Positions 33,217 to 58,541 of a stretch of DNA of 58,541 nt are shown here, piece by piece. Source of the DNA: a virus. Made by a program: the position numbers and the translations under genes. The notes beneath the pieces were generated by a model. It was not told the DNA's origin. It saw only the letters and a program-made list of their open reading frames with translations, and searched no databases. Location of the stretch: positions 1 through 58,541 of IMG/VR virus record IMGVR_UViG_3300032282_004643. One strand, given 5' to 3'. Position 1 is the first letter of the stretch, and every line of letters starts with the position of its first letter.

Positions 33217-33221
33217 ATTTA

Positions 33222-34490: not shown

Positions 34491-34499
34491 CCAAATCTA

Positions 34500-35522: not shown

Positions 35523-35538
35523 AATTTCTCCGAAGCAC

Positions 35539-35611: not shown

Positions 35612-35620
35612 AAACATCAA

Positions 35621-35878: not shown

Positions 35879-35908
35879 AATAACCTCGTTGTTGTGATTT
35901 TGTAAAGC

Positions 35909-35980: not shown

Positions 35981-35984
35981 ATGT

Positions 35985-36009
35985 GTGGGAGGTTATTTAG
36001 ACCTCCCAC
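35985..36009 (-). terminator. Hairpin after the BIG2 lipoprotein gene
   Basis: A 9-bp perfect stem GTGGGAGGT...ACCTCCCAC, 7-nt loop, 7 nt after the stop of the BIG2 gene. There is no T run, so it may pause or process rather than terminate. Confidence 0.45.
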
Positions 36010-36016
36010 TGTACTA

Positions 36017-37144: not shown

Positions 37145-37214
37145 TTTTTTTCTCCTACTGAGGTATTCCGACACAACGGAGTGTTGTGCCTTCTAAGCCG
37201 GGATATCCCGACAC

Positions 37215-37285
37215 GGGACCACTAGGACTCGAACCTAGACAAACAGTTTTGGAGACTGTTGTGCTGCCAATTACACTATGGACCC
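37215..37285 (-). tRNA. tRNA-Trp (CCA), copy 2
   Basis: Acceptor GGGTCCA/TGGTCCC; anticodon arm ACAGT-CTCCAAA-ACTGT gives CCA; T arm CTAGG-TTCGAGT-CCTAG. Better paired than copy 1 at 29047. Confidence 0.93.
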
Positions 37286-37290
37286 AACAA

Positions 37291-37364
37291 TGCCAAGAGA
37301 GGGAGTCGAACCCCCGACGCCCAGCTCTTCAGGCTGGCGCTCTACCAACTGAGCTATCTTGGCA
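37291..37364 (-). tRNA. tRNA-Phe (GAA)
   Basis: Acceptor TGCCAAG/CTTGGCA; anticodon arm CCAGC-CTGAAGA-GCTGG gives GAA; T arm CGGGG-TTCGACT-CCCTC. Confidence 0.93.
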
Positions 37365-37369
37365 TCTAT

Positions 37370-37441
37370 GCACCGTGAAGGAATCGAACCTTCAGCCTGG
37401 TGATTAAGAGTCACATGCTCTGCCAATTGAGCTAACGGTGC
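37370..37441 (-). tRNA. tRNA-Lys (CUU)
   Basis: Acceptor GCACCGT/ACGGTGC; anticodon arm TGTGA-CTCTTAA-TCACC gives CUU with one mismatch at the stem foot; T arm GAAGG-TTCGATT-CCTTC. Confidence 0.9.
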
Positions 37442-37446
37442 AAAGT

Positions 37447-37519
37447 AGTCCCTATTGGATTTGCACCAATGACCTTTGCTTTATCAGAGCAACGCTCTAA
37501 CTAACTGAGCTAAGGGACT
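37447..37519 (-). tRNA. tRNA-Ile (GAU)
   Basis: Acceptor AGTCCCT/AGGGACT; anticodon arm TTGCT-CTGATAA-AGCAA gives GAU; T arm ATTGG-TGCAAAT-CCAAT, with G replacing the usual second T of the loop. Confidence 0.9.
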
Positions 37520-37542
37520 GTATGAATTATACAATTTTATGT

Positions 37543-37624
37543 GGTATCGGTAGGACTCGAACCTACAAGCTCTTTCGAGGGCTGATTTACAGTCAACTGA
37601 GCCAACCAATTGCTCAACGATACC
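37543..37624 (-). tRNA. tRNA-Tyr (GUA)
   Basis: Class II: acceptor GGTATCG/CGATACC; anticodon arm GTTGA-CTGTAAA-TCAGC gives GUA; long variable arm; T arm GTAGG-TTCGAGT-CCTAC. Confidence 0.92.
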
Positions 37625-37652
37625 ATTGCCGCTAGGCGACACTCCCGAACTA

Positions 37653-38234
37653 CTATTTTTTCAAATCGTTTTTAACATCTCGTGATACTTTATTAAGATA
37701 TTTCTTACGAGTAATATCATCAACAAACGGTACACTCCAAAATTGTCGTGTGTTTGTCTTGAACCATCCAAACACAAATGAATATACACCTAATACCAAC
37801 CGAAGTTTTACAGCGTTGAAATATAAAAAATAAACAGGAAGTGCAGGTGCTCCATGTGTTAAGTATGTACGAACTTTCTTGTGTGACAATAATGGTTTAG
37901 GATAACCATATTTTGGAATTAACGGAACAAATTTATATGCGAATCCTGGCGTGAATACGACATCAAAAAATTCTTCCATTAGTGGCGTACACCGAAACCA
38001 CCATACAGGTGATATAATGTAAATTCTATCTGCCCATGTCACCAATTCTTGATAGTGTTTGATAACTTCCTTCTTTTTAATAGAAAGGTCATCCTTATAT
38101 AAATCAATGACTTCTATGGTTTGTGTAGATTCATAGCTTGCGTTATTAGTTAATTCGTCTTTAATGGTTTTAAAAATACCATTATAACAAAAACTTTTCT
38201 TATCAGGGTGTCCGATGACTATTAAATTGTTCAT
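37653..38234 (-). CDS. Flavodoxin-fold NAD(P)H:quinone oxidoreductase-like enzyme
   Basis: A 193-residue protein of the Flavodoxin_2 family. NLIVIGHPDKKSF is the FMN/FAD phosphate loop and SPVWWFRCTPLMEEFFDVVF, followed by TPGFAYKF, is the family hallmark. Relatives reduce quinones by two electrons or relieve electrophile stress. This is an unusual phage cargo gene, probably from a bacterium. It is flanked by tRNA-Tyr and tRNA-Met. Confidence 0.82.
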   Translation of the reverse strand: MNNLIVIGHPDKKSFCYNGIFKTIKDELTNNASYESTQTIEVIDLYKDDLSIKKKEVIKHYQELVTWADRIYIISPVWWFRCTPLMEEFFDVVFTPGFAYKFVPLIPKYGYPKPLLSHKKVRTYLTHGAPALPVYFLYFNAVKLRLVLGVYSFVFGWFKTNTRQFWSVPFVDDITRKKYLNKVSRDVKNDLKK

Positions 38235-38263
38235 TTCACTCCTTGCAAAAGTTATAAGTCAAT

Positions 38264-38338
38264 AGCACGGGTGGGACTCGAACCCACATAAACCCGCCTT
38301 ATGAGAGCGGTGCCTCAGCCAGTTCAGACCACCGTGCC
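38264..38338 (-). tRNA. tRNA-Met or Ile2 (CAU anticodon)
   Basis: Acceptor GGCACGG/CCGTGCT; anticodon arm CCGCT-CTCATAA-GGCGG gives CAU; T arm GTGGG-TTCGAGT-CCCAC. Initiator, elongator and lysidine-Ile forms cannot be told apart; since Ile(UAU) already reads AUA, Met is favoured. Confidence 0.88.
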
Positions 38339-38452
38339 CTGTTCTAATTCTTTTAACTGTTTTAATGTTGCGTATTTTTTTCTCAAATTAACATTTCTAC
38401 TGTCATTTTTTAACTTATTTTTGTTACCACCCTTATAAGTTTCTGATGGTCT
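38324..38452 (-). pseudogene. C-terminal remnant of an ORF, probably a homing endonuclease
   Basis: A 42-codon open stretch without a start codon (contains RPSETYKGGNKNKLKNDS), rich in Lys and Asn. Its TGA stop falls at nt 13-15 of tRNA-Met, the same position as the stops of the HNH genes at tRNA-Pro and tRNA-Val. An in-frame TAA just upstream and an adjoining tRNA 5' fragment suggest a deletion scar of a tRNA-associated HNH gene. No nuclease motif remains. Confidence 0.4.
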
Positions 38453-38490
38453 AACTTACGAAAACATCTCACCAGTTGAGCTACCCTGCC
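38453..38490 (-). pseudogene. 5' fragment of a tRNA gene
   Basis: The minus strand reads like the first third of a tRNA (acceptor GGCAGGG, TA, D arm GCTCAACTGGTGAGA) but no CCCTGCC acceptor, anticodon stem or T arm follows. The DUF1289 stop (TAG) lies at nt 8-10. It looks like a decayed or disrupted tRNA. Confidence 0.5.
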
Positions 38491-38642
38491 AATTTTCTTA
38501 TAAATATTTTAATCCAAACAATTAACTTTTTCAAATTAGAAAATTGTCTCCATCTCTTAATTTCATCAATTGTACGATAACATCCCACACAATTAATTCC
38601 ATTAAGCTTACATATTTTTTTACATGGTGAAGTTACAACCAT
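38481..38642 (-). CDS. DUF1289 family small Cys-rich protein
   Basis: A 53-residue protein. SPCKKICKLNGINCVGCYRT, then IDEIKRW, is the DUF1289 signature (four Cys spaced as SPCxxxC...CxGCxRTxxEIxxW). Function of the family is unknown; the Cys set may bind a metal. ATG 38642 has no clear SD and lies 10 nt after the previous stop, so translation may be coupled. It ends inside a tRNA fragment. The chromosomal family is proteobacterial in most cases I know. Confidence 0.75.
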   Translation of the reverse strand: MVVTSPCKKICKLNGINCVGCYRTIDEIKRWRQFSNLKKLIVWIKIFIRKLAG

Positions 38643-38651
38643 TTGTGTATA

Positions 38652-38807
38652 TCAATATTGTTTAGAGTCCATCGCGTGTTGGATGTCTCCACCTTCCAAT
38701 ACATCAATATTTTTCCTATGTCCATCATATAAGATGAAGGTTAAAATAAGTATTGTTGTAATGCAAATAATTGTAACAAATACATTTTTAATTACAGTTG
38801 GACGCAT
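38652..38807 (-). CDS. Small single-span membrane protein
   Basis: 51 residues starting MRPTVIKNVFVTIICITTIL with one membrane helix (~8-28) and an acidic tail. The SD AAGGAGG, 5 nt before ATG 38807, is among the best in the window, which strongly supports expression. No family recognised. Confidence 0.7.
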   Translation of the reverse strand: MRPTVIKNVFVTIICITTILILTFILYDGHRKNIDVLEGGDIQHAMDSKQY

Positions 38808-38832
38808 GTATCCTCCTTGAAAAATATTAAGA

Positions 38833-38903
38833 GGTACGGGTCGGAATCGAACCGACGTATAGAGGTTTTGCAGACCTCGGCCTTACCGCTTGGCGACCGT
38901 ACC
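38833..38903 (-). tRNA. tRNA-Cys (GCA)
   Basis: Acceptor GGTACGG/CCGTACC; anticodon arm GAGGT-CTGCAAA-ACCTC gives GCA; T arm GTCGG-TTCGATT-CCGAC. Confidence 0.93.
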
Positions 38904-38909
38904 ATAAGC

Positions 38910-38982
38910 ACCCCCGGAGAGATTTGAACTCCCATCGGACGCTTTAGAAGAGCGTTGCCTTATCCAATTAGACCACGGGGGT
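38910..38982 (-). tRNA. tRNA-Arg (UCU)
   Basis: Acceptor ACCCCCG/CGGGGGT; anticodon arm ACGCT-CTTCTAA-AGCGT gives UCU; T arm GGGAG-TTCAAAT-CTCTC. Confidence 0.92.
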
Positions 38983-38987
38983 ATTTT

Positions 38988-39347
38988 CTATTTACTCAAA
39001 CTATGCCGAACAGGTTTTCCATTATCATCAAGACAAACGAACACCATTTCGTCAATATTAACAATAATTTTTTGTGTTGTTAAATCACGTACTTGTACTT
39101 CTAATGTAACAGATGTCTTTCCTACTTTTTTTAAAGCAATTCCAATTTCAACAATATCACCTTGATACGCAGGTGCGATGAAATTGATAGCGGAAATACT
39201 TTTAGTAACTACCCGTTTATGCCGTGTTTCGATTGCGGCATATATTGCTGCTTCTTCGTCTACCCACGCCAAACAACGTCCACCAAACAGAGTGTTGTTC
39301 CCGTTTAAATCTCCAGGTTGCACCCACTTACGTGTAAGAAATCGCAT
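38988..39347 (-). CDS. Acyl-CoA thioesterase-like hotdog protein
   Basis: A 119-residue hotdog-fold protein of the acyl-CoA hydrolase (YciA/BACH-like) group: start FLTRKWVQPGDLNGNNTLFG, then GGRCLAWVDEEAAIYAA with the catalytic-type Asp, AINFIAPAYQGDIVEIG, and a core VTLEVQVRDL strand. It would hydrolyse fatty acyl thioesters, touching lipid metabolism. This is rare in phages and probably acquired. It sits between tRNA-Arg genes. Confidence 0.8.
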   Translation of the reverse strand: MRFLTRKWVQPGDLNGNNTLFGGRCLAWVDEEAAIYAAIETRHKRVVTKSISAINFIAPAYQGDIVEIGIALKKVGKTSVTLEVQVRDLTTQKIIVNIDEMVFVCLDDNGKPVRHSLSK

Positions 39348-39369
39348 AAAACCTTTATCTAATTGTTAT

Positions 39370-39442
39370 GCCCCAAGCAGGAGTTGAACCCACAACCCTC
39401 TGATCCGAAGTCAGATGCTCTATCCAGTTGAGCTATTGAGGC
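39370..39442 (-). tRNA. tRNA-Arg (UCG)
   Basis: Acceptor GCCTCAA/TTGGGGC; anticodon arm TCTGA-CTTCGGA-TCAGA gives UCG, unusual because most bacteria use ACG (inosine) for CGN. T arm GTGGG-TTCAACT-CCTGC. Confidence 0.9.
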
Positions 39443-39450
39443 AAACTACA

Positions 39451-39942
39451 TTAATCCCACAGTCCTTCGTAATATTTACCAAACAACCGGAACCCGTTGG
39501 TGATACGGAGTTGATAATTCTTTGATGCATCCCAATCACAGTCACCCTCCGTTAACCAACGAACGGGCTTGAATTCTTTTCCTTCATCTTCGGGATAGTT
39601 TGTTAAATCCAGTCTAGGAGTTTCCTTCCAGAACTGTTCTTGCCAATCGGTGAGTTTACTTTCAAACGCAAATATCATTTCGTCCATAACCCAATCCCAC
39701 CGTTGAAAATGTTTTTCATCTACGTCAGATGGGTCTACGTTTTCCGAACGAAGATGTTCTGGTACATCACTCATATCCACATAGGGAGCGCCGTGTTTGG
39801 TTTCCTTCAACTGCTTGAGCATAGGAATAACGATGTGTGCCAACGTGGTATCCATGTTCCACGTATCCCATGGATCAATTTGGATATACATCTTACGTTC
39901 TTCATCAGAAGTTTCTGGGTACTTTCCAATATGGATATTCAT
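39451..39942 (-). CDS. Conserved phage protein (IDPWDTWNMD family), unknown function
   Basis: A 163-residue acidic protein starting MNIHIGKYPE. The blocks IDPWDTWNMDTTLAHIVIPM, LKQLKETKHGAPYVD and HFQRWDWVMDEMIFAFES match a protein family spread among unrelated phages, with no known role. ATG 39942 is chosen by this similarity; no SD is clear. It lies between tRNA-Arg(UCG) and tRNA-His. Confidence 0.72.
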   Translation of the reverse strand: MNIHIGKYPETSDEERKMYIQIDPWDTWNMDTTLAHIVIPMLKQLKETKHGAPYVDMSDVPEHLRSENVDPSDVDEKHFQRWDWVMDEMIFAFESKLTDWQEQFWKETPRLDLTNYPEDEGKEFKPVRWLTEGDCDWDASKNYQLRITNGFRLFGKYYEGLWD

Positions 39943-39966
39943 AATTTGAGTAGTTAAATGTTTAGG

Positions 39967-40039
39967 GTGAATGACGGGATTCAAACCCGCGACCCTCGGA
40001 ACCACAATCCGATGCTCTAACCAGCTGAGCTACAATCAC
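39967..40039 (-). tRNA. tRNA-His (GUG)
   Basis: Acceptor GTGATTG/CATTCAC with one T-T mismatch and a G encoded at position -1; anticodon arm TCGGA-TTGTGGT-TCCGA gives GUG; T arm GCGGG-TTTGAAT-CCCGT. Confidence 0.9.
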
Positions 40040-40047
40040 CACAAAAT

Positions 40048-40128
40048 GCACTCGGTGGGGGTCGAACCCACACACCCGAAAGTGCTGCATCCTAAGTGCA
40101 GTGCGTCTGCCAGTTCCGCCACGAGTGC
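40048..40128 (-). tRNA. tRNA-Leu (UAG)
   Basis: Class II: acceptor GCACTCG/CGAGTGC; anticodon arm CTGCA-CTTAGGA-TGCAG gives UAG; long variable arm; T arm GTGGG-TTCGACC-CCCAC. Its 5' part is duplicated at 40640-40658 on the far side of an HNH gene. Confidence 0.93.
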
Positions 40129-40132
40129 AATT
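40114..40132. repeat. 19-bp direct repeat, copy in intact tRNA-Leu
   Basis: The 5' end of tRNA-Leu(UAG) plus four flanking bases, identical over 19 bp to 40640-40658. The HNH stop codon begins directly beside it. The pair flanks the HNH gene like a target-site duplication or reconstitution scar. Confidence 0.7.
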
Positions 40133-43571: not shown

Positions 43572-43616
43572 CTCAATCCTCCACAAATTATTAACGCCAA
43601 CCCTTCATTTTTGAAT

Positions 43617-43956
43617 GGACCCGAGGGGAATCGAACCCCTGTCCGAGACTGCTTACTACTAAGTGTTTATGTACATAGCTGATTGTTTGCTGTCTCTGTG
43701 CTTTTAATAATCAGCGAACCTGCACAGATAAGAGTTTGTAAATTTGATATCGAATACTAACTCCCCTTTCCGATACTACACCATATACTTTGAACAAGTT
43801 AATCCTATATGGGTCAGATTAATCTTGTCAGGCTGCGATTAAGCAGCGAGGGCTAATTGAGTATTGCCAGTTAAATATTTTTGGTCTGTTTTACTCGTTT
43901 TACCAAACGAGGTACAAAGCTTAATCATCCACATCCCGTCGAAACCAGGCGGGCCC
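43617..43956 (-). ncRNA. ssrA: tmRNA (SsrA)
   Basis: A 340-nt RNA. The 5' end has GGGCCCGCCTGGTTTCGACG and the 3' end a T arm CAGGGG-TTCGATT-CCCCTC with acceptor CGGGTCC, together forming the alanine tRNA-like domain. The tag frame ends ...NTQLALAA followed by TAA (43841-43839), the typical ALAA degradation signal; the resume codon is not certain. Hairpin CTCGTTT/AAACGAG precedes the tag as part of a pseudoknot. tmRNA with SmpB frees stalled ribosomes; no SmpB gene is in this window. Confidence 0.93.
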
Positions 43957-44209: not shown

Positions 44210-45055
44210 TTATACTACTGCTCTTCCCTTATCCTTCTCCCAATCACGTTCAGGACGAACTTCCAAATTCTTTTCCCATACAGCTTTTAGTAATGGAGCA
44301 GGGTGACCGTTTTGTTCACTATGTTGAATTAACGCATTTAAATCTTTCGGGAAGCATGTTCCACCAAATCCAAAACGTCCATCGTGTCCCGGTACTTGCC
44401 AATGGCTCGTTCCGAGTCGTGGATCTAATTTTAGTATCTTAGTAATGTGGTCATACTCAATACCAGTCTTTTGACATATTTGGTAAATTTCATTAAGAAA
44501 TGCCACCTTTGTAGACAACATCGTGTTTGCTGTGTACTTAATCATTTCTGCTTCTTTGGCTGTTAATATCCACACCTGTGACTGTGGGAATCTGTGGTAG
44601 TATAACTTTGATACCGGCTTTATATCAAACCCACTATCCTTTACCGAATGCCCCAACGTAATGTTAACCTGTGATACGAAATCGTTAATGTAATTTCGTT
44701 CTGTTAAAAATTCCGGATTAAAACACACCGTGATATTTGGGAATTCTTCTGCCAACTTATCAGTAGTACCAGGTTCTACGGTAGATTTTAATACACATAT
44801 TGGTTTGTATTCCGTGTGTACTTTTGTGATTTCTTCAAACACACTACGAACAATATTAATATTACAAGTACCATCACTATTCATTGGTGTAGGAACACAA
44901 ATAAAAATTATTTGTGCTTTACTAACTACACCCTGTATAGAATTTTCTGTACATTCCTTATTAATGTCGTAGGTAACTACTTTATTTATAGACTTAAAGC
45001 CTTCTCGTACAGCAGTACCGACATAACCAAGTCCTATAACACCTATGGTATTCAT
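44210..45055 (-). CDS. UDP-glucose/GDP-mannose 6-dehydrogenase family, C-terminally truncated
   Basis: A 281-residue protein. Rossmann motif GLGYVGTAV (8-16), CVPTPMNSDGT, LKSTVEPGTTDKL, NPEFLTERN, KYTANTMLSTKVAFLNE and catalytic-site GFGGTCFPKD with C234. Normal enzymes have 400-450 residues and a C-terminal UDP-sugar domain, absent here. The product would be a nucleotide-activated uronic acid. It overlaps the GT4 gene by four bases. Confidence 0.82.
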   Translation of the reverse strand: MNTIGVIGLGYVGTAVREGFKSINKVVTYDINKECTENSIQGVVSKAQIIFICVPTPMNSDGTCNINIVRSVFEEITKVHTEYKPICVLKSTVEPGTTDKLAEEFPNITVCFNPEFLTERNYINDFVSQVNITLGHSVKDSGFDIKPVSKLYYHRFPQSQVWILTAKEAEMIKYTANTMLSTKVAFLNEIYQICQKTGIEYDHITKILKLDPRLGTSHWQVPGHDGRFGFGGTCFPKDLNALIQHSEQNGHPAPLLKAVWEKNLEVRPERDWEKDKGRAVV

Positions 45056-46188
45056 ATTGCCCTCGTAACTGGACCTATATTAGATCTTTTACTATACCAA
45101 CCATCACCAGTTGATATATCGTGAATTTGTTTAAATGCCGCATCGTACTTATGCGCTAACGTATACATATCATAATTTTCAACTGCAAAATTTCTGACAT
45201 ATTCTCTGGATATTTCTCCGTTCTCTATACGTTCTAGTCCAGACAAATAATCCCCAAGAGTTCTACAATGGAATCCTGTTTTACCGTGCTGAATTGTTTC
45301 GGTAAAACTTCCATACGAAGAACCCAATACAGGTGTACCACACAATTCTGCTTCTACGGTTACTCCACCAAATGGTTCTACATATCTGGTTGGCATTAAT
45401 ACCGCCATTGCATTATTTAAAAAGTGAGAACGATCTCTACCGTGAATTGGTGGTACATATTCTATATTTGATGAAACTAAATATGGAGTTGGATCTCCCT
45501 GACCACAAATTTTAAATTGTAAATCTGGTCGGTGCTTAGCTACTTCTGTGACTATATGCACACCCTTAATATCAGACAATCTACCAAAGTATGCAACGTA
45601 TTTTTGTGGATTTGGATTGAAGTCCCAGTCATCTACCTTGAAATAATTTGGAATTACCCAATTATAGTCATGACCACTCTTACCTTCCCTACCAATTTCA
45701 TAGTGATACCATGCATTACTTTCAAAAATACGAAAACTTTGATACGAATTTGGATAACCAATACCAGTTTCTACTTTGGGGTTGGCAAAATCCGAAATTG
45801 CTGATTCATGTGCATATCCGAAAGGTAAGCAAATGATATCATGTGTGTCAAGGTTTCGTGTTAACTGAATTTTTAAACGTTCGTTAAATATTCTATAAAG
45901 TTCATTTCCGGTATTTGCTAAATCACCAATAAAATCAGATGGCATAGCATCACGATCACCATACAATTCTTTAAATAATTTTGTACGAATACCTGTCCAT
46001 TCATCAAATGACATTAAATTAACATCATATACCGCCCCACTGTGCGCACCTTCAACACCATAATGTATAACGTCATATCCAACTGATTGCATCATTGGAG
46101 CAAAACGTTTTACCTTGCCTGTAAAGGCACAGTGGCTAAATTCATACGTTGTTTGGGTATGCGGAATACCTAATAAGTGTAACCGCAT
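45052..46188 (-). CDS. Family 4-like (GT-B) glycosyltransferase
   Basis: A 378-residue GT-B protein. The C-terminal domain is clear: YVAYFGRLSDIKGVHIVTEV, FKICGQGDP, and the GT4 block MPTRYVEPFGGVTVEAELCG, followed by TPVLGSSYGSFTETI. The N-terminal half resembles proteins made for phage or host glycan building. Coupled with the dehydrogenase and the sulfotransferase it suggests a small glycan-modification module. The acceptor is unknown. Confidence 0.83.
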   Translation of the reverse strand: MRLHLLGIPHTQTTYEFSHCAFTGKVKRFAPMMQSVGYDVIHYGVEGAHSGAVYDVNLMSFDEWTGIRTKLFKELYGDRDAMPSDFIGDLANTGNELYRIFNERLKIQLTRNLDTHDIICLPFGYAHESAISDFANPKVETGIGYPNSYQSFRIFESNAWYHYEIGREGKSGHDYNWVIPNYFKVDDWDFNPNPQKYVAYFGRLSDIKGVHIVTEVAKHRPDLQFKICGQGDPTPYLVSSNIEYVPPIHGRDRSHFLNNAMAVLMPTRYVEPFGGVTVEAELCGTPVLGSSYGSFTETIQHGKTGFHCRTLGDYLSGLERIENGEISREYVRNFAVENYDMYTLAHKYDAAFKQIHDISTGDGWYSKRSNIGPVTRAI

Positions 46189-49984: not shown

Positions 49985-51001
49985 TTAAATTCCGTTAGGC
50001 GTGGTTGACCACGTAATATCTTCAACATCTGTGTTATTTAAAATAGTATTTGTTACATAGTCCTTAAACTCAGCGCTGTTCGACAAATTATGCATGACAC
50101 CATTATACATCAATTTGTAAACACCCACCGACTCCAATATATCCAGTTTATTGATAATTAAATCGGTAACACCGTTAATATTTGCAGCTTTGATTACACC
50201 ATCTAAGTCTAACCACCTAACTTTTCGTTTACGTCCGGTAGTTGCACCAAACTCACCACCAGCTTCCTGAATTCTTTGAAGATCAACATCATTTTCGTCT
50301 TGGAACGTGGCTTTAAATCCAGAATACGTTTCGTATGCTTTCATAATACCAAATATGTAACGTAATTTTTTTGGAGGAATTCCGTTTAAGCAAGCAGCGC
50401 CTGCCGTACAATGCGAACTAGTGACGTATGGATAATCACCCCAATCAATATCAATTTGAAAACCTTGTGCACCTTCGCACAAAATACGATATGGTTTTTC
50501 ACTACGATGTAAAAACTGATAGATGTCAATGATATTGTATGGTGCGTCACTTTCTAATAACTTTACATAATCCAAAATACGTTGACCTGTTCTAGCGTAT
50601 TTGTCTCGGTATGTTGGACCAATACCTTGTCGAGTGGTTCCAATCTTACTATCGGTTCCGTCCTCTTCAATATGCTTATTTGTAGTAACATGTACGCGCT
50701 TGTCTACATACAATTGACCTGTGAATCCTAGATTTCGCAACATATCCAACTCTTCGTACAATTTTGGAATATTAACTACGCATCCAGGTCCAATAATACT
50801 TGGGATACCATAAAATATTCCGACTGGTACTTGATGTGTAACAATTTTTTGTCCGTTGTGATAAACGGTATGTCCCGCATTGGCACCACCATTATAACGT
50901 AATACTACATCATAACCCTTAGCCAGATGATGGGCAACTTTACCCTTACCAGTATCTCCTGCTTGGAGATCTACAATAACATCTGCAAATTCAATACTCA
51001 T
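49985..51001 (-). CDS. Adenylosuccinate synthetase (PurA) family, short phage form
   Basis: A 338-residue enzyme of the PurA superfamily; cellular PurA has about 430. Visible: P-loop AGDTGKGK (14-21) keeping the catalytic Asp (D16) but with Thr where PurA has Glu, RYNGGANAGHTV, IGTTRQGIGPTYRDK, GAQGFQIDIDWGDYPYVTSS, GATTGRKRKVRW and NKLDILE. It should join IMP or a related nucleotide to aspartate. PurZ of Z-genome phages, also short, replaces that Asp; retaining D16 and NKLD argues for an IMP/GTP reaction. It overlaps the amidase gene by four bases. Confidence 0.85.
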   Translation of the reverse strand: MSIEFADVIVDLQAGDTGKGKVAHHLAKGYDVVLRYNGGANAGHTVYHNGQKIVTHQVPVGIFYGIPSIIGPGCVVNIPKLYEELDMLRNLGFTGQLYVDKRVHVTTNKHIEEDGTDSKIGTTRQGIGPTYRDKYARTGQRILDYVKLLESDAPYNIIDIYQFLHRSEKPYRILCEGAQGFQIDIDWGDYPYVTSSHCTAGAACLNGIPPKKLRYIFGIMKAYETYSGFKATFQDENDVDLQRIQEAGGEFGATTGRKRKVRWLDLDGVIKAANINGVTDLIINKLDILESVGVYKLMYNGVMHNLSNSAEFKDYVTNTILNNTDVEDITWSTTPNGI

Positions 51002-51513
51002 ACTCCATCCTTGTTTAAACTTAACTTTGATATGTCAAAAAAATTTCCTGGATCTGTTTTTCTGCCGTACGGACTTGCGACTTGTGCGTGCGTCACAATC
51101 TGTTTTTCACGACTATCTGGGTATTTCCTATACAAATAATTTATTAACGTACTTAAACTTTCGTATTGTTTATCTGTATACTGTGTATCATCGCTACCTT
51201 GTAAACATATACCAATACTAAACGTATTCCAATTTTTCATACCTAAATAGTCGGTGCTTCCTGCGTGGTATGCTACGTTACGTAACTCTTTAAATTGAAA
51301 TATTTTTCCATCTTTGTTGATGAAAAAATGATATGAGAGTCTACGCATACGTAAAACTAATCGGGTAGATTTTTCATTCATACCAGCACCATCATTGTGA
51401 ATGACTATATAATTGTTGGTAGTATCCCGACGACTAATTTTACCCGGTAGTAAATGTTTTGTTATTGTTGGTGGTTGTAACAACACCACAGCTAGTAATA
51501 ATTTGGTAAACAT
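50998..51513 (-). CDS. Exported N-acetylmuramoyl-L-alanine amidase (Amidase_2)
   Basis: A 171-residue protein. The N-terminus MFTKLLLAVVLLQPPTITKH is a signal-like hydrophobic segment. Zinc ligands H39 (YIVIHNDGAG), H142 (THAQVAS) and D154 (RKTDPG) follow the T7 lysozyme/PGRP pattern, with YHFFINKDG and AYHAG blocks. It would cut the peptide from peptidoglycan, acting as a secreted endolysin. A strong terminator lies in the upstream gap before the lipase gene. The start follows AGAGGAG. Confidence 0.85.
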   Translation of the reverse strand: MFTKLLLAVVLLQPPTITKHLLPGKISRRDTTNNYIVIHNDGAGMNEKSTRLVLRMRRLSYHFFINKDGKIFQFKELRNVAYHAGSTDYLGMKNWNTFSIGICLQGSDDTQYTDKQYESLSTLINYLYRKYPDSREKQIVTHAQVASPYGRKTDPGNFFDISKLSLNKDGV

Positions 51514-51527
51514 ATAATCTCCTCTCT

Positions 51528-51562
51528 AAAAATAAAATGGAGGTTGATATTAGTCAACCCCC
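51528..51562 (-). terminator. Rho-independent terminator after the lipase gene
   Basis: Nine-bp stem GGGGGTTGA/TCAACCTCC with loop CTAATA, then ATTTTATTTTT on the mRNA strand. It separates the lipase transcript from the amidase-PurA pair. Confidence 0.85.
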
Positions 51563-51589
51563 AATTATTAAATTTAATTTATTGGTGAT

Positions 51590-52372
51590 TTACTGTTCAT
51601 CATCGTTCATTGACCAGAATGATAGGTGCTGTACATAAAGATCAGAGGAATGATCTTTTGCATCACCAGTAACTATCTTCAATGCACCAGTTCCGAAACT
51701 TAAACACAGTTTAACTATGTTCATAATTTTTGTTTTGTTTTCTATATTTTTGGTTATCAATCCACTTTGTCCAATGTGATGTCGTGTACCACAATGGTAA
51801 TACCACGGTGAAAACGGAACCTTCGTTACTATATCACCATTATTTACCCAACGATGATGTGTAAGATGTGTGTTAAATTCGTTAATATATTTACGATCAC
51901 CAACACGAGGACTACCAAATGTAAATAAAGCGGTTGGTGTTGGTAGTTCTGGTTGTAGTACGCATCTACGAGCCATTAACGTAGCCATAGCAGCGCCTAA
52001 ACTATGCCCGGTTAACCAGAGGGATTTTGTTTGTACGGATGAAATATGTGCTTTAATTGGTTCCCATATCTTATCCGTATATGTTCTAAATCCACGATGT
52101 ACTTGACCAATACCGGTTCGTGAGGGAACTAAATTAATACTTAAATCAGCCTTCACATCAGACCATTCGTTTACTTCCGTTCCACGGCAAACAACGATAA
52201 TATCGGTATCATCTTCAATTACGTATGCATTACTACCATCATTACCATAATAAATGGATACATAACCTAACTTATCAAATAACTTTCTTGCTTTTTCTGG
52301 TGGTTGATACGCGAGATTACTAAATCTTGCAAATAATGCACTTTGTTCTGAAAAATTTTTATTTTTAATCAT
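51590..52372 (-). CDS. Class 3 lipase (alpha/beta hydrolase)
   Basis: A 260-residue protein. VCRGTEVNEWSDVKADL is the oxyanion-side block, TGHSLGAAM holds the nucleophile S124, FTFGSPRVGDRKYINEF follows, D180 (NNGDIVTKVP) and H193 (YYHCGTRHH) complete the triad. This is a full, apparently active lipase. It has no clear signal peptide. It could hydrolyse host membrane or storage lipids during lysis or egress. Very unusual in a T4-like phage; neighbours are envelope-directed genes. Confidence 0.85.
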   Translation of the reverse strand: MIKNKNFSEQSALFARFSNLAYQPPEKARKLFDKLGYVSIYYGNDGSNAYVIEDDTDIIVVCRGTEVNEWSDVKADLSINLVPSRTGIGQVHRGFRTYTDKIWEPIKAHISSVQTKSLWLTGHSLGAAMATLMARRCVLQPELPTPTALFTFGSPRVGDRKYINEFNTHLTHHRWVNNGDIVTKVPFSPWYYHCGTRHHIGQSGLITKNIENKTKIMNIVKLCLSFGTGALKIVTGDAKDHSSDLYVQHLSFWSMNDDEQ

Positions 52373-52381
52373 ACCACACTC

Positions 52382-53893
52382 CTATAACATTATTCGAGAA
52401 CCAACTAATAGAAAACTGAGTGGTTTTTGTCCTGGACTCATCATTAATCTATATGCTGCTGTTGCACCAAAACGTTTGGTAATTTTATAGTCAAATGAAC
52501 TACCCACCATACTACCCAACTTATCATTTTTAGTAAGACCAGTTACCGGATTGTACGCAAATGGTGATGCCATAACAAATACCTGTGGAGATGCCGTGAG
52601 GCGGGGATTTATTTGAATTGGTGGATGCATCCAAAATAATACAGCCGAGGTAGCCCAACTACTGTTATAACCGTGTGTCTTTATAATTAGACTGTCGGGC
52701 ATATAAGGAAGGTCTTTTTTATATTTTTCTAATATTATTCTTCGTATTTCCGAAGTATCTGTTACTACATTTCTTTGTCCATTTGGTAAAAATAATCCTA
52801 TCGCACCCAAACTGACCCCATATACACCAAACTTAGGATGTGGTTTTACCCATGTATATCCCATCATACTCATCAATGTGCCTTTCAAATAGGCGTTCGT
52901 ATTGGAATAACTACTAATACTATTTAGTTTACCTTTTTTAAAATTCATCTTTGTGTATGATAAAGACAAGGCACCTTGATCAAGTGTACTCCATAACATT
53001 GTGGTTGCCCCATAACTTTTGTCACCTGCCAAACTACTTTGCGAAACACCAACAGTAATAATTTCCGAAAGCTTATTATCAGCGGTCTGTCCCAATGTTA
53101 AATCCGAAGCAACCATAATTGGATTTGCTCGAGCTTCTGATTTTTTCTTATCCTCTTTCTTTTCCTCTTTTTTCTCTTCCTTCTTTTCTTCTTTACTTTC
53201 TGATTTACTTTCTTCTTTCTTTTCCTCGGACTTACTTTCGGATTTACTATCATCAGACTTTGTTTCCGACTTGGTTTCAGATTTCGTTTCTGTCTTTGTT
53301 TCTGTTTTTGTTTCTCCACTTGAGCTGCTTGATGAGCTACTTGAAGTGGATGACCCAGAACTGGAGCTGGAAGAAGGAGCAGGCGCTGATGAAGAACTAG
53401 GAGGAGGAGAACTTGGTGTTGGAGGTGGTGTTGATGTGGCAGCTGAACTGGCAGCGCTGGAGGCGGCGCCTGATGCTGCACTACTTGCTGAACTACTTGC
53501 AGCATTTGAAGCAGCAGAAGTAGCAGCCGAACTTGCTGCGCTAGACGCGGCTGCGGAGGCGGCACTACTAGCTGCTTGTGCTGCCGCCTGTGTAGCTGCT
53601 TGTGTGGCAGTTTGTTGTACGATGGGATTATTGGTAATGGGACATGGTACAGCTAAAGTAACTTGATTTATCCAAGCAAGCAACTCACCAGACGAAGCTT
53701 GTTGTGCGGTAAATACTTTGGACTGATTACGATAAACTACTGTTACACCAATCCCATTTAATGGAAATGTTGCAGTTTGTACTGCATTTGTACATGGGTC
53801 TATCCACGTTTGTACTACTACCTGTGCTTTTGCAGAACAGGCAATGACTATGTTGGCTATACCAAATAAAATATATATTTTTAGTAATTTCAT
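52382..53893 (-). CDS. Exported protein with Ala/Ser and Lys/Glu/Ser low-complexity region
   Basis: A 503-residue protein. Signal peptide ending ACSAKAQ; residues ~20-85 are a beta domain (VVVQTWIDPCTNAVQTATFP) with two Cys; residues ~95-165 are almost only Ala/Ser/Gln/Thr; ~165-260 is a Ser/Pro then Glu/Lys/Ser/Thr stretch (TETKTETKSETKSETK). The C-terminal ~240 residues are beta-rich and end in a hydrophobic strand, as outer-membrane beta-barrel proteins do. It may span the outer membrane with a flexible periplasmic linker. No family name known. Confidence 0.68.
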   Translation of the reverse strand: MKLLKIYILFGIANIVIACSAKAQVVVQTWIDPCTNAVQTATFPLNGIGVTVVYRNQSKVFTAQQASSGELLAWINQVTLAVPCPITNNPIVQQTATQAATQAAAQAASSAASAAASSAASSAATSAASNAASSSASSAASGAASSAASSAATSTPPPTPSSPPPSSSSAPAPSSSSSSGSSTSSSSSSSSSGETKTETKTETKSETKSETKSDDSKSESKSEEKKEESKSESKEEKKEEKKEEKKEDKKKSEARANPIMVASDLTLGQTADNKLSEIITVGVSQSSLAGDKSYGATTMLWSTLDQGALSLSYTKMNFKKGKLNSISSYSNTNAYLKGTLMSMMGYTWVKPHPKFGVYGVSLGAIGLFLPNGQRNVVTDTSEIRRIILEKYKKDLPYMPDSLIIKTHGYNSSWATSAVLFWMHPPIQINPRLTASPQVFVMASPFAYNPVTGLTKNDKLGSMVGSSFDYKITKRFGATAAYRLMMSPGQKPLSFLLVGSRIML

Positions 53894-53903
53894 TATATAT
53901 TAA

Positions 53904-54614
53904 CTATTTTTTAAAGATTCCTTTCTTAACCATACGTGTAAGAATTTTAGCCGATGCATCTTCTAAGGCTTTCTTGGTTGATGTACCAATAGTACTTTGA
54001 TTAAACTTCACTTCACTGAAATTGGCATCGTTCATTACAGTTAGTTCACGAACTGTCTTGGCTTCACCCAATCCCGAACCTGTGAAATATTCACCTGTTT
54101 CTGCATCCACAAATTTTACTTGTAGACCCAATCGTGTAACTACCGTGTTCTTGACACCATCTTTCATGTTGACAGTTTCATCCTCGGATACAGAGAAGTC
54201 ATAGACTTCTATGTATACAAAATAATGTGCCAAGCGAATCTTGCCTGCTCCATCCAACTTATCTTTTGTGAATCCTGCTTGTGATGCTTGGAATTGCTTC
54301 ACCATACGGTTTTTAATTTCCGTCTTATCTTCGGTGAAGGTGAAACGATTAGTTTCTTCCAAGAATTCTACAACAATATTTGTGACACCTAATCCCACAC
54401 GCTTATCTTTGAGTTCTGGATATTGTGAGAATACTTCATCACCAATACCGATATTCAAGAGTTGAATAGGAATTTTTGGACCATCATAGTCCATTAAGGA
54501 ATCAATATTCACCTTCTTTTCGAAGGAGGCCTTATAATCTTCCGTTTTGGTCTTGCCGACTACTTGAGCTGACAATATGGACGGAACAAAAAATAACAAC
54601 AATAATTTTTTCAT
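53904..54614 (-). CDS. CsgG-like exported protein, paralogue 1
   Basis: A 236-residue protein. Signal peptide MKKLLLLFFVPSILSAQ, then a CsgG-type alpha/beta domain: KRVGLGVTNIVVEFLEETNR, an acidic FTEDKTEIK, helix QFQASQAGFTKDKLDGAGKI, LAHYFVYIEVYDFSVSED, and LGLQVKFVDAETGEYFTGSG. CsgG forms the outer-membrane curli secretion pore; here the lipid-anchor Cys is absent, so lipidation is not expected. Shares GLxxGVxNI and FNQ segments with 57391-57894. Confidence 0.72.
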   Translation of the reverse strand: MKKLLLLFFVPSILSAQVVGKTKTEDYKASFEKKVNIDSLMDYDGPKIPIQLLNIGIGDEVFSQYPELKDKRVGLGVTNIVVEFLEETNRFTFTEDKTEIKNRMVKQFQASQAGFTKDKLDGAGKIRLAHYFVYIEVYDFSVSEDETVNMKDGVKNTVVTRLGLQVKFVDAETGEYFTGSGLGEAKTVRELTVMNDANFSEVKFNQSTIGTSTKKALEDASAKILTRMVKKGIFKK

Positions 54615-54615
54615 A

Positions 54616-54903
54616 TTAGTTTTCCTGTGCTGCTTCTACTTTTTTAATAGTAGATGGTGAGAACTTCTCCAATCCAGCGATACCAAATGAACCAAGTGTA
54701 ATGTACATAAATGAATTATAGACAAATTCGTGAATTTCTAACTTAATTCCGTACACACCAGTTACAATATCAACCAACGAATATATCGTCATAACAGCAA
54801 ACGACATAAACCCAATTATGGTTTTTTCATTGAAATGATTACTATCCTTAAAGATTTCGGCAAACTTGCTAAAAATCGTTTGTTGTATTTGTTTAGTATC
54901 CAT
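54616..54903 (-). CDS. Holin-like two-span membrane protein
   Basis: A 95-residue protein. Two hydrophobic helices (~28-50 and 62-80) separated by a short polar turn, a charged N-terminus and a basic-acidic C-terminus. Size and topology fit a class II-type holin. It sits between the CsgG-like gene and a Pro/Ala-rich membrane protein, within a cluster holding an amidase. Holin identity is inferred from topology only. Confidence 0.5.
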   Translation of the reverse strand: MDTKQIQQTIFSKFAEIFKDSNHFNEKTIIGFMSFAVMTIYSLVDIVTGVYGIKLEIHEFVYNSFMYITLGSFGIAGLEKFSPSTIKKVEAAQEN

Positions 54904-54908
54904 TTAAA

Positions 54909-55187
54909 TTACCACTTTGGTTCAGCTTTCGTCCAACCATCCTTCTTAGGTTCTGCGGGTTTTGTTGCTGGTGCAGCTGAACCACCCTTAGCACCACCTG
55001 CTTGCGTTTGACTATTGTTGATGATAATATTTGGTGCAGGAGCTGATACTGCTGCGGCGGGAGCTGGAGCTTCGTCACCACCCATCACCTTTTTACCAAT
55101 GACACCAGCAATGGCTGTTACAATAATTGTAACCAAACCAATGATGGCATTCTTCAATCCACCGCCACTTGATTGTTCTTCTGACAT
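54909..55187 (-). CDS. Single-span membrane protein with Ala/Pro/Lys-rich tail
   Basis: A 92-residue protein. Gly-rich start, membrane helix ~12-33 (NAIIGLVTIIVTAIAGVIG) and a long tail of Ala, Pro, Gly and Lys (APAPAAAVSAPAPN; KPAEPKKDGW). Such a tail may cross the periplasm or bind peptidoglycan, loosely like TonB. No family recognised. A GGAG-type SD lies before ATG 55187. Confidence 0.6.
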   Translation of the reverse strand: MSEEQSSGGGLKNAIIGLVTIIVTAIAGVIGKKVMGGDEAPAPAAAVSAPAPNIIINNSQTQAGGAKGGSAAPATKPAEPKKDGWTKAEPKW

Positions 55188-55270
55188 GTTTCTCTCCTTT
55201 TAGATTGAGTTAAAATAAGTAAAGCTATAATACCAACCATTGCATCACGCAATTCATCTTCACGAGTCAT
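55154..55270 (-). CDS. Possible 38-residue protein overlapping two genes
   Basis: ATG 55270 overlaps the lipoprotein stop (TAATG). The frame encodes a short acidic start and a hydrophobic stretch (AMVGIIALLILT) and ends inside the 54909-55187 gene. Coupling is its only support; it could be noise. Confidence 0.35.
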   Translation of the reverse strand: MTREDELRDAMVGIIALLILTQSKRRETCQKNNQVAVD

Positions 55271-55647
55271 TAATGTTTAACAATTACAGGAATTTTTAAT
55301 ACACGACCTGTATTGTCCATTAAATTTAAATCGTATGCACCATCCACTACATTAGAATAATTTAGTGTAATTGTCATTTGTGATGCATTTGCCGTAAATC
55401 CATAGTTGTTAAGGATAGTTCCGTTGATATGAGTCAACTGAAAACTATACATCGCACCAGGAGTAACATTTACGGTAATTTCATATAACCCGGATGTCAG
55501 CGGACCAGGTATACCATTTACTGCCAATTGTTTTGATGGTACTCCCAAAGAAACATCTGTCCCGTCAAATACAGGATTTGTAATGGTGTCGTCTAAACGA
55601 CAACCTACAACGAACAACAACGCGGAAAATAGTATAATATTTTTCAT
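55270..55647 (-). CDS. Lipoprotein, beta-rich
   Basis: A 125-residue protein. Signal MKNIILFSALLFVVGC with lipobox Cys16 followed by RLDD; the mature part is beta-rich (T9SS-like or Ig-like strands such as GLYEITVNVTPGAMYSFQLT). It overlaps the cohesin/dockerin gene by four bases (ATGA), so the two are probably made together and may interact. No named family. Confidence 0.68.
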   Translation of the reverse strand: MKNIILFSALLFVVGCRLDDTITNPVFDGTDVSLGVPSKQLAVNGIPGPLTSGLYEITVNVTPGAMYSFQLTHINGTILNNYGFTANASQMTITLNYSNVVDGAYDLNLMDNTGRVLKIPVIVKH

Positions 55648-57389
55648 GGATTTTTAAAGAAGTTTGCACCAATTAACTTGATGACAGTGGTGTTGAAATT
55701 AATACCAACCTGATTACCCTTATCATCGGTAGCATCCATCGTTGGATATATCTGTACCGATGTGTTCAAATCCACACCAGTAGATACTGATGAAAATACC
55801 AATTTAAACGGAACTAAATTACTACCAGATAGTGTATTTTTTAAATCTTTATCAACTGCACCAAAACGAATAACACCATCATTATTATTAACGAATGTTA
55901 CCCAACTAGGTGTGTTCACTTCCATTTTTTCAAATTTTACCTTTGTAGGGTCATATTTTACTTCAAATTGTAAGCCCGTAAGTTTTGTTGTTTTTGTATC
56001 TACCGTAAACGGAATACTAACATTGTTTGAAGTAACAACAGAATTATTTAAACTTACGTCAATGCTTGGTGCATTTGGAACTACAAAATTACCAAATGTT
56101 GATACATAGGCAACATTGCTTGCTGCACGTATGGCAGCAGCTTCATTAGCTGTGGCACCTATAATTGAACTATGTGACAGATTTACATCTCCCTTGAACA
56201 CATATCGTAGATTTACTACCTGTTCTGCCGTTGATGTTTGTAATTGTGTATAATACGGATTTGCTAATGTTTTCCACGCGGTAAATCCTAATGTATCATA
56301 TACTGTATTACGAATTGTTGGGAGCGTCACAAAACAATTTGCCGAACATCCGGCAGGCGCTTTCACAATGGTATCTAATCCTACAACGGCGTTAAATATC
56401 TTTTGCACATCTCCGCCATCAAACTCACCATTCATATTTACATCAGCAGCCCAGTATTTAATACCTGCGTTAATGTTGGTGTTTTTGAATGTTCTATCTA
56501 AATTTTGTGTGATGAATTCTTGAACTGCTGCAGTATAATCTGAGATGGTTGTTGCTGCTTTACTGACGCTAGCAACACTATCAGCGGGAATCATTAGACG
56601 CATTCTATACCACGTAGTAGGTTGTAGTTGCTGTCCAAAACCAAAGTTTCCACTTGTACCTACCAAAGTATTACTTGCTTCTGTGGGCTGTGTTAATGTA
56701 TCTGTGATGGATAATTTCATCATTCCTTGTAGGCCTGATGAAATGTTGGCACCATGCTTTACATTACCCGACACAAGATTATTGGCATTAGAATTTAATT
56801 GAATCCAAACACCTTTTGCTCCTGACATCTGTGTGGTTTGTATGATATTACCACCAGCATCATATCCTACGGCAAAGTTCATATAGACAGAATCATATGG
56901 AAATCCTGCCGTGGTGTTTGTAATTTGAAACTTCAATGTCACGTAGGTAGCTTGGTCAAGATTGGCGGAGCTAGCCACATTCACCATAACGCGGTTAATG
57001 GCATGATAAAGAACGGTCTGTGCATTGCATGTATAGTTTGAAGCCATCCAATTGTTATATCCGTTGTTTGTAGTATTTTGTGCACTTCTATTAAATTTGC
57101 AATTTGGATAGAAATAATTCTGTACACTGAATGATGCAGCCTGTGGAATGCCTGCACCTTTTTCTACACTCAAAAATTGAATGGCATCTTTCTGATGTTG
57201 AAAATCAAAATAGATGGATCGAATGGATGAGAAGTTTGGATTCATTTTTACCACAAGAGCAATAGTATCGTTCTTTGAGATACTTGTGCCTCGTGTGTTT
57301 GTTGTAATGGTGCTACTTTCCCACCAAACAGATGGTTGTGCTGTTAGTATTGTAGGCACTAATAATAATGCGGCAAGTAGTTTTTTCAT
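55644..57389 (-). CDS. Secreted protein with dockerin-like and cohesin-like domains
   Basis: A 581-residue protein. Signal peptide MKKLLAALLLVPTILTAQ; residues ~20-280 are beta-rich; ~300-345 carry AADVNMNGEFDGGDVQKIFN, a calcium-loop DxNxxGxxxxxD of dockerin type, with a second GDVNLSHSS loop near 405; ~440-560 look like a cohesin beta sandwich (SLNNSVVTSNNVSIPFTVDT, then LTGLQFEVKYDPTKVKFEKM). Both halves of a cellulosome-style lock in one chain could allow self-assembly or display. Adjacent CsgG-like genes suggest export to the surface. Confidence 0.72.
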   Translation of the reverse strand: MKKLLAALLLVPTILTAQPSVWWESSTITTNTRGTSISKNDTIALVVKMNPNFSSIRSIYFDFQHQKDAIQFLSVEKGAGIPQAASFSVQNYFYPNCKFNRSAQNTTNNGYNNWMASNYTCNAQTVLYHAINRVMVNVASSANLDQATYVTLKFQITNTTAGFPYDSVYMNFAVGYDAGGNIIQTTQMSGAKGVWIQLNSNANNLVSGNVKHGANISSGLQGMMKLSITDTLTQPTEASNTLVGTSGNFGFGQQLQPTTWYRMRLMIPADSVASVSKAATTISDYTAAVQEFITQNLDRTFKNTNINAGIKYWAADVNMNGEFDGGDVQKIFNAVVGLDTIVKAPAGCSANCFVTLPTIRNTVYDTLGFTAWKTLANPYYTQLQTSTAEQVVNLRYVFKGDVNLSHSSIIGATANEAAAIRAASNVAYVSTFGNFVVPNAPSIDVSLNNSVVTSNNVSIPFTVDTKTTKLTGLQFEVKYDPTKVKFEKMEVNTPSWVTFVNNNDGVIRFGAVDKDLKNTLSGSNLVPFKLVFSSVSTGVDLNTSVQIYPTMDATDDKGNQVGINFNTTVIKLIGANFFKNP

Positions 57390-57390
57390 A

Positions 57391-57894
57391 TCAGTTTGTC
57401 AATTTTCCAATGAGGGTTTCCGAAGACTTTTTCAACGCATTGGACAAGGAGGTTTGATTAAACTTTCCTCCTTGATCAATGATTAAAGTAGACATAGAAA
57501 TTTCTGACGAAGACTCTTCTGCAACCGCTTTCTTTAAGACTTTACCATCTTTGTTCACAATACTGCCCATCAACCGAATAACAACTTCTTCTGCGTTTTG
57601 ATGAAAGACTGAAATGTTCTTCTTGGTGGTCAGCACATCCAGATAGATAATTTCTACCCGTAATTTATTATCAGCGGAGGGACTTAATTCATAGTCCTTT
57701 TCCAATAGGAATTCTTCTAAAATATTTTTAACTCCAAACTCTAATCCTCGGTTTCCCGCTAAAGGACCGATTTGTACAGAGTTAGTGACTTTTTCTACAA
57801 ATATAGTTTTTTGCTGTGCCGCTAGGGTGTGTGATGAAGTGCACAATAGTATAATGGTTGCGCACATATTCATGACATGGGAAAACGGGTTCAT
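57391..57894 (-). CDS. CsgG-like exported protein, paralogue 2
   Basis: A 167-residue protein with signal peptide (MCATIILLCTSSHTLAAQ) and a short CsgG-type domain: TIFVEKVTNSVQIG, RGLEFGVKNILEEFLLEKDY, VEIIYLDVLTTKK and a C-terminal FNQTSLSNALKKSSETLIGK segment. The GLxxGVxNIxxEFLxE and FNQ blocks are shared with 53904-54614. Shorter than paralogue 1 and possibly a partner subunit. A terminator and an ACTATTTATA element lie directly upstream. Confidence 0.62.
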   Translation of the reverse strand: MNPFSHVMNMCATIILLCTSSHTLAAQQKTIFVEKVTNSVQIGPLAGNRGLEFGVKNILEEFLLEKDYELSPSADNKLRVEIIYLDVLTTKKNISVFHQNAEEVVIRLMGSIVNKDGKVLKKAVAEESSSEISMSTLIIDQGGKFNQTSLSNALKKSSETLIGKLTN

Positions 57895-57939
57895 AATGTC
57901 TCCAAAAGTAAAATAGACATTACAGAACCCGTTCGATAT

Positions 57940-57949
57940 TATAAATAGT
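57940..57949 (-). promoter_or_regulatory. ACTATTTATA element before the exported-protein cluster
   Basis: ACTATTTATA on the mRNA strand, 45 nt before ATG 57894 and 7 nt after a terminator hairpin. Terminator-element-gene order is what a promoter would show. Confidence 0.5.
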
Positions 57950-57956
57950 ATTTGAA

Positions 57957-57975
57957 AACCGTTTCCGCTACGGTT
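57957..57975 (-). terminator. Terminator-like hairpin after the DUF2589-like gene
   Basis: AACCGT, loop AGCGGAA, ACGGTT then TTC on the mRNA strand, 8 bp after the stop at 57984. Short T run, moderate support. Confidence 0.6.
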
Positions 57976-57983
57976 AAATATTA

Positions 57984-58469
57984 TTAACTATTTGCTGTGT
58001 GGTTAGGATCTTCTAATTGTTGAATGTACGAATCAATTATTCTGGATACCGCTTCTGGTTTTGTATCCGCCTTAAATTTTACTTTAATTTTGGCTATACC
58101 CGAACCATCGGAATTTTTCCCAGAATCTACTTCAATTGATTTAATATTATGTTGGTGGTCCCTTCTCTTAAATATACCCAACACAGATTTTTTAATATTA
58201 GATACTTGTGTTTCGTCGTTACCAAATATCAATCGAGCTTCGAATTCAATATCTAACTCATCGAGCCCGATTGATGAATGGTCTGCGAGAATATATAATG
58301 GTACTACCAAATCTCTATCTCCAATTTTAAAGGTAGTAGTTTTAGGAGTACCATTATCATTAAAATAATTGCGAACTGCATTGATGTGTTGTTTTTCACT
58401 GATACTATTAGCTACCATACCAGCTTCGAGTAACCCAGCAACCAATTCTTCAATATTCAGCCGTGCCAT
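57984..58469 (-). CDS. DUF2589-like protein
   Basis: A 161-residue protein. IEELVAGLLEAGMVANSISE at the start, a VPLYILADHSSIGLDELDIE strand-turn, and a terminal KAEAVSR-like helix fit the DUF2589 pattern (helix, then VPLLxL...IxExxxxFE). The family has no known function but often sits beside surface or secretion genes. A second gene of the same transcript begins upstream (58495). No export signal. Confidence 0.5.
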   Translation of the reverse strand: MARLNIEELVAGLLEAGMVANSISEKQHINAVRNYFNDNGTPKTTTFKIGDRDLVVPLYILADHSSIGLDELDIEFEARLIFGNDETQVSNIKKSVLGIFKRRDHQHNIKSIEVDSGKNSDGSGIAKIKVKFKADTKPEAVSRIIDSYIQQLEDPNHTANS

Positions 58470-58494
58470 ATATAACCTTTGTGTTAAAGTTTAA

Positions 58495-58541
58495 TTACTT
58501 ACTTTGTGGATCTTCTGTCAATGGAATCAACGATGGTTCTA
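58495..58541 (-). CDS. 3' end of an unidentified gene
   Basis: The last 14 codons of a minus-strand frame (EPSLIPLTEDPQSK, stop TAA at 58497-58495) run to the window edge. The stop is 25 bp before the DUF2589-like ATG, so they are probably co-transcribed. Nothing can be said of function. Confidence 0.6.
   Translation of the reverse strand, partial: EPSLIPLTEDPQSK

Follow-up and report, generated by a model that had tools for sequence, protein, structure and literature searches.

The question raised by this locus is why a phage should carry, nearly contiguous and on one strand, genes for two CsgG-like proteins, a cohesin protein and an outer-membrane beta-barrel protein. The locus lies in IMG/VR virus record IMGVR_UViG_3300032282_004643, a viral record of 58.5 kb (58,541 nucleotides) that was analysed over its whole length and is referred to here as the window. 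The window carries T4-type baseplate genes and represents part of the genome of a contractile-tailed phage. Among named phages, the closest relative found was Flavobacterium phage immuto (Immutovirus), whose CsgG-like 1 protein (CsgG-1) is 54.7% identical to that of the window. An earlier note on this DNA had described a consecutive minus-strand cluster reaching from a DUF2589-like gene to a PurA homologue and had proposed an envelope channel or a surface scaffold. Every gene named there is open, lies on the minus strand and is nearly contiguous with its neighbours; the domains, the loop and the terminator located below lie on the minus strand as well. We regard it as an even bet that the genes from csgG-2 to the barrel gene specify one exported complex, which would span the outer membrane of the infected cell and display the cohesin/dockerin-like protein.

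The joint conservation of these genes was examined in 39 mapped loci that had been selected through CsgG-1. CsgG-1 and the cohesin family were present in all 39, CsgG-2 in 38 and the barrel protein in 37, followed by an Ala/Pro-rich membrane protein (31), a holin-like protein (30) and a GH19 endolysin (28), with other neighbours dropping off quickly. Since the loci had been chosen by CsgG-1, the search was repeated from CsgG-2, whereupon the cohesin protein was found in 79 of 80 loci and CsgG-1 within the locus in 47 of the 61 with enough flanking sequence. Ten of the 14 csgG-2 loci apparently devoid of csgG-1 were checked; eight have csgG-1 elsewhere on the contig, and two, on partial contigs, are without it. 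CsgG-1, CsgG-2 and the cohesin protein occur together in most of 318 viral loci while the flanking genes change, and the median ratios of nonsynonymous to synonymous substitution rates (dN/dS) of 0.06-0.20 across all members tested indicate purifying selection. The gene set is found together in related phages and is not scattered; a scattered set was what the earlier note had named as refuting its idea.

With the window protein as query, relatives of CsgG-1 were detected on 526 viral contigs; a distant query yielded 245 and the immuto query 113, the three lists overlapping one another. The contigs reach sizes of more than 400 kb. A scan of bacterial sequences with two peptide patterns, which distant bacterial relatives could escape, matched csgG-1 on two contigs of metagenome-assembled genomes only, and these are probably phage sequence. 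The carriers of the module are a widespread group of large freshwater Bacteroidota phages, the host assignment being pointed to by sorting domains of the type IX secretion system (T9SS) on relatives of the cohesin protein. The T9SS is restricted to the Bacteroidota group.

The cohesin protein (581 amino acids; 55644-57389) is exported and comprises an N-terminal beta domain, a dockerin-like region and a probable C-terminal cohesin domain (about residues 415-575; 55665-56147). In the window protein alone the cohesin domain remains below the Pfam threshold; in 13 of 34 relatives the region aligned to it exceeds the cut-off for PF00963 (best E-value 5e-11), and the cohesin of immuto gp15 aligns to residues 435-514 of the window protein (E-value 6e-6). 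The dockerin-like region contains the EF-hand-type loop DVNMNGEFDGGD (residues 316-327; 56409-56444), in which D316 and D324 are conserved in at least 90% of the sequences and D327 is invariant. The same loop is common to separate C-type-lectin proteins encoded 3' of the barrel gene in relatives, and the lectin suggests glycan binding. For the former label of a cohesin/dockerin protein, the cohesin is supported through the relatives and immuto gp15, and the dockerin part comes down to a single loop. A gp14-like N-terminal domain and the gp15 cohesin are encoded by separate genes in immuto and joined in larger relatives; such a fusion in some genomes and separation in others is a classical sign of joint action, in this case at the level of domains. 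When the cohesin and barrel proteins of the window were used as tblastn queries, phage records gave no matches, and the immuto counterparts were recognised only via domains and pairwise matches of the relatives.

Of the 34 relatives of the cohesin protein, 18 had a T9SS type A sorting domain by Pfam and 16 by NCBIfam, and in immuto gp15 the domain stands together with the cohesin. Its presence indicates the host cell surface as the probable destination of the protein. A small lipoprotein with the lipobox VVGC (55270-55647) is encoded only where the cohesin protein is without that domain. Both features were mutually exclusive at every lipoprotein-bearing locus of the first set, and among 330 loci with a cohesin-family match 131 contained the sorting domain, 58 the lipoprotein, none both and 141 neither, the last class depending on the thresholds chosen and including some loci with divergent sorting-type tails. 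A hidden Markov model of the sorting domain, applied to a set of about 12,400 open reading frames, returned the lipoproteins as best non-self matches (E-values 0.0006-0.003), and hhalign of lipoprotein against sorting domain yielded 91%. Judged from its sequence, the small lipoprotein is a divergent copy of the T9SS sorting domain; the scores are modest for so short a domain, and position and exclusivity agree with the assignment. An acidic residue occurs at position +3 after the lipoprotein cysteine in 17 of 26 sequences, which may weakly resemble the surface-lipoprotein signal of Bacteroidota (SDDFE in F. johnsoniae; PMC5080379). Further T9SS cargo was noticed near csgG-1 at another locus (L187:5188-7371), where a large exported protein combines a PKD domain with a CHU_C T9SS signal domain.

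The barrel protein (52382-53893) consists of a signal peptide, a small conserved DPC-motif domain, a variable linker that is first Ala/Ser-rich and then Lys/Glu-rich, and a C-terminal domain (52385-53128) predicted by AlphaFold2 as twelve antiparallel strands (predicted local distance difference test score, pLDDT, 87). The fold matches of this domain in the PDB are of the porin type and include NanC, OmpG, FapF, autotransporter domains and other outer-membrane barrels. By its signal peptide and its modelled antiparallel barrel the protein qualifies as an outer-membrane beta-barrel. It had been entered as a low-complexity envelope protein, a description that missed the C-terminal barrel, its main feature. 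DPC proteins of similar type follow csgG-1 in distant lineages as well. In several relatives a gene for an exported DNA/RNA non-specific endonuclease (PF01223) lies between csgG-1 and the barrel gene (L001:10708-11331, L004:9538-10149 and similar).

CsgG-1 (53904-54614) is exported and is the most conserved member of the module, with a mean column identity of 77% and a dN/dS of 0.056. No sequence family recognised it in profile searches: PF03783 matched neither the window protein nor any of 35 relatives, and a PDB sequence-profile search with CsgG-1, CsgG-2 and the cohesin protein gave no matches. An AlphaFold2 model built from 34 phage sequences is of moderate confidence (pLDDT 62), and Foldseek returned Escherichia coli CsgG as the 16 best PDB matches of this model (best E-value 1.1e-7, probability 1.00, template modelling score about 0.4), followed by FlgT, HpaA, GNA1162, LptE and PelC, all of them envelope proteins. 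Because CsgG is ranked first despite the moderate model confidence, the CsgG fold is accepted for the modelled protein; the structure search thereby upholds the fold proposed in the earlier note, whereas membership of the CsgG sequence family received no match. Together, the barrel and the CsgG-fold protein suggest a trans-outer-membrane base.

In the proposed mechanism, a ring of CsgG-1, perhaps together with CsgG-2, would sit in the periplasm beside the barrel protein. The host T9SS would carry the cohesin protein to the surface, or the lipoprotein would hold it there, and dockerin-like partners, such as the C-type-lectin protein of the relatives, could dock onto it. As the most likely benefit, the infected cell may then bind differently, so that kin cells are held close for the burst or receptors are covered against other phages. 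As a tentative elaboration we picture a surface-display machine of the phage, in which a CsgG-fold ring and a barrel base are plugged into the host T9SS and bear an exchangeable scaffold of cohesin, dockerin-like and lectin parts, with the sorting domain supplied in cis or, as the lipoprotein, in trans.

Several observations count against the displayed complex. No Pfam dockerin match was obtained for the cohesin protein, which has one clear EF-hand-type loop instead of the duplicated EF-hand of dockerins. The sorting domain is absent from the window's own cohesin protein, which stops behind the cohesin; the lipoprotein gene comes next. On a tree, the exchange of sorting domain and lipoprotein can be accounted for by about two switches (range one to three) and therefore does not amount to dozens of independent observations. 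Moreover, the holin-like and endolysin genes beside the module also fit lysis, and no clumping was seen with the Methylophilales phage Melnitz, for which a related idea had been considered (PMC9004378).

Lysis is the main rival. In this case the CsgG-fold ring, the barrel and the membrane proteins would weaken the outer membrane late in infection, so that holin and endolysin release the progeny. The module includes the Ala/Pro-rich single-span membrane protein with a conserved C-terminus (54909-55187) and the small holin-like protein with about two membrane spans (54616-54903), whose gene is sometimes relocated beside an endolysin gene in the mapped loci; the latter is indeed a small membrane protein, and its identity as a holin is unproven, the matches being weak. 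Holin-like, GH19 endolysin and coiled-coil spanin-like genes occur in or beside the module at many loci, exported nuclease and lipase genes are close by, and CsgGF was proposed as lysis control by the Melnitz authors (PMC9004378). Display is nevertheless preferred as roughly twice as likely, because lysis leaves the T9SS-sorted cohesin protein and the surface lectin without reason; moreover, the core is constant while the type and the position of the endolysin vary. To our knowledge, no lysis protein of the CsgG-fold or barrel kind has been described, and we consider lysis an unlikely explanation of the module.

A curli-like channel, with CsgG-1 as outer-membrane pore exporting the cohesin protein or another fibre subunit, is distinctly less probable. 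The CsgG fold itself, the curlin-repeat proteins of known phage CsgG modules and the amyloid exporter FapF, one among many other porins matched by the barrel, speak for it. However, when the two sequences are compared by eye, the stretches of CsgG-1 that correspond to the two transmembrane hairpins (TM1 and TM2) of E. coli CsgG are more hydrophilic and each fall short by several residues. By a crude score the TM2-like stretch is weakly amphipathic (mean 0.9 versus 3.1 in E. coli CsgG) and the TM1-like stretch moderately so, and the acidic residues D145 and E146 are invariant among the aligned relatives. In addition, none of 58 sequences contains a lipobox or lipidation cysteine, no Pfam match to CsgE, CsgF, CsgA or CsgB was found among the proteins of the window cluster, curlin repeats were not found either, and the cargo already has a T9SS route in relatives. 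The evidence does not support a genuine CsgG pore, and CsgG-1 as a definite pore was rejected as unproven. The T9SS sorting domains and the barrel thus agree with the scaffold half of the initial proposal, whereas its channel half is weak.

The exported proteins might also form a mere coat for superinfection exclusion that masks host receptors (T9SS or gliding adhesins) and involves no scaffold. Small exported phage proteins commonly act by masking host receptors, and two relatives of CsgG-2 matched TraT, a family of surface-exclusion lipoproteins (best E-value 0.0018). This match is isolated and weak, and one or two genes would be enough for such a coat, yet a multi-gene core is retained; we hold this explanation to be improbable, too. 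CsgG-2 (57391-57894; 167 amino acids; dN/dS 0.15) is exported and nearly always encoded near CsgG-1; its sole family signal is a sub-threshold similarity to YajG (Lipoprotein_16, PF03923) in 17 of 40 relatives (best E-value 1.8e-4), and its profile aligns with that of CsgG-1 over 22 columns only (hhalign probability 65%). The two CsgG-like paralogues of the earlier note are consequently reduced to a possible paralogy, as far as sequence comparison goes. That the genes are adjacent by descent without joint function is very improbable: the loci stem from related phages with partly inherited gene order, but the core survives changing flanks, occurs in altered order in immuto and contains domains fused in some lineages and split in others.

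Regarding the layout of the unit, the overlaps recorded previously, ATGA at 55647/55644 and TAATG at 55270, are both present; the latter joins the stop of the lipoprotein gene to the start of a 38-amino-acid open reading frame with one membrane segment (55154-55270), which overlaps the next gene. Of the at least six signal or lipoprotein peptides claimed, those of CsgG-1, CsgG-2, the cohesin protein, the lipoprotein and the barrel protein were confirmed and are kept in most relatives, while the sixth, at the amidase N-terminus, was seen by eye only. Upstream, no convincing terminator precedes csgG-2 in the window, and the DUF2589 protein (57984-58469; PF11655, E-value 4.4e-11) borders the module; it immediately precedes csgG-1 in loci L049, L051 and L080. 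Downstream, an accessory class 3 lipase without evident signal peptide (51590-52372; PF01764, Lipase_3, E-value 6e-25; 6 of 39 loci) is followed by an intrinsic terminator (51538-51563; 10-bp stem with T run, fold z-score -3.0) that closes the unit. The amidase (Amidase_2, E-value 1.5e-27) and PurA-like (adenylosuccinate synthetase, E-value 4e-81) genes beyond it (49985-51513) were correctly named. Both had been counted as part of the cluster; since the terminator ends the unit, they probably belong to a separate one, and with each found at 4 of 39 loci they were ruled out as module members. The PurA-like protein (49985-51001) is short (338 amino acids), has a GDTGKGK loop and matches PurA models best, below their cut-off; PurZ, known from 2-aminoadenine genomes, scored lower (125 bits, where the cut-off is 300). 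Elsewhere the window contains 29 tRNA genes and a tmRNA with the tag GNTQLALAA (28804-40129 and 43613-43956), and adjacent nucleotide-sugar dehydrogenase and glycosyltransferase-like genes (44210-46188) that possibly serve sugar modification of surface or DNA.

Among known systems, envelope proteins of the CsgG, LptE, PelC and FlgT type share the fold of CsgG-1 without detectable sequence relation, and CsgG-1 differs in not being a lipoprotein. CsgG modules of SAR11 and OM43 phages were published for pelagimyophages such as HTVC008M, for which 'sibling capture' was proposed (PMC7029224), and for Melnitz (PMC9004378). As in these modules, a phage CsgG fold stands beside exported surface-type proteins, one of theirs with PA14: HTVC008M gp18 contains PA14 and curlin repeats (PF07012), and the window module looks like them in outline. 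Their CsgG, in contrast, truly belongs to the family, with 37-40% identity to that of E. coli, and is accompanied by CsgF and curlin repeats, whereas the window module is without such partners and has the barrel, the cohesin protein and, in relatives, T9SS sorting instead. Curlin-repeat proteins directly follow CsgG in HTVC008M (L106:4318-7407) and Melnitz (L351:5351-8145); the Melnitz record lists two 'curlin associated repeat' genes, whereas the paper reports curli fibre genes missing (PMC9004378). Phage proteins with T9SS type A sorting domains are likewise known as cargo of Cryophage (PMC7468147), where the cargo genes are variable; here a conserved core gene is tied to the CsgG-like and barrel genes, and its sorting domain is fused or replaced by the lipoprotein. 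The earlier statement that no such phage system was described therefore applies to the full combination and not to CsgG modules or T9SS cargo, which were published separately. The open-licence literature searched contained no report of CsgG-like proteins united with a barrel, a cohesin scaffold and a cis/trans exchange of the sorting domain, and this union appears new.

If display is the true function, widespread freshwater phages remodel the exterior of infected cells by a dedicated multi-protein assembly, the locus offers a natural experiment on T9SS sorting domains acting in trans, and immuto, with Flavobacterium sp. LMO8 as host, provides a culturable system in which to test why phages carry CsgG. 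The immuto record consists mostly of hypothetical proteins with no function proposed, its gene order is altered and its cohesin protein is split; like the window, however, it clusters csgG-1 (55% identical), csgG-2, a cohesin with sorting domain, a lectin and a barrel-type gene.

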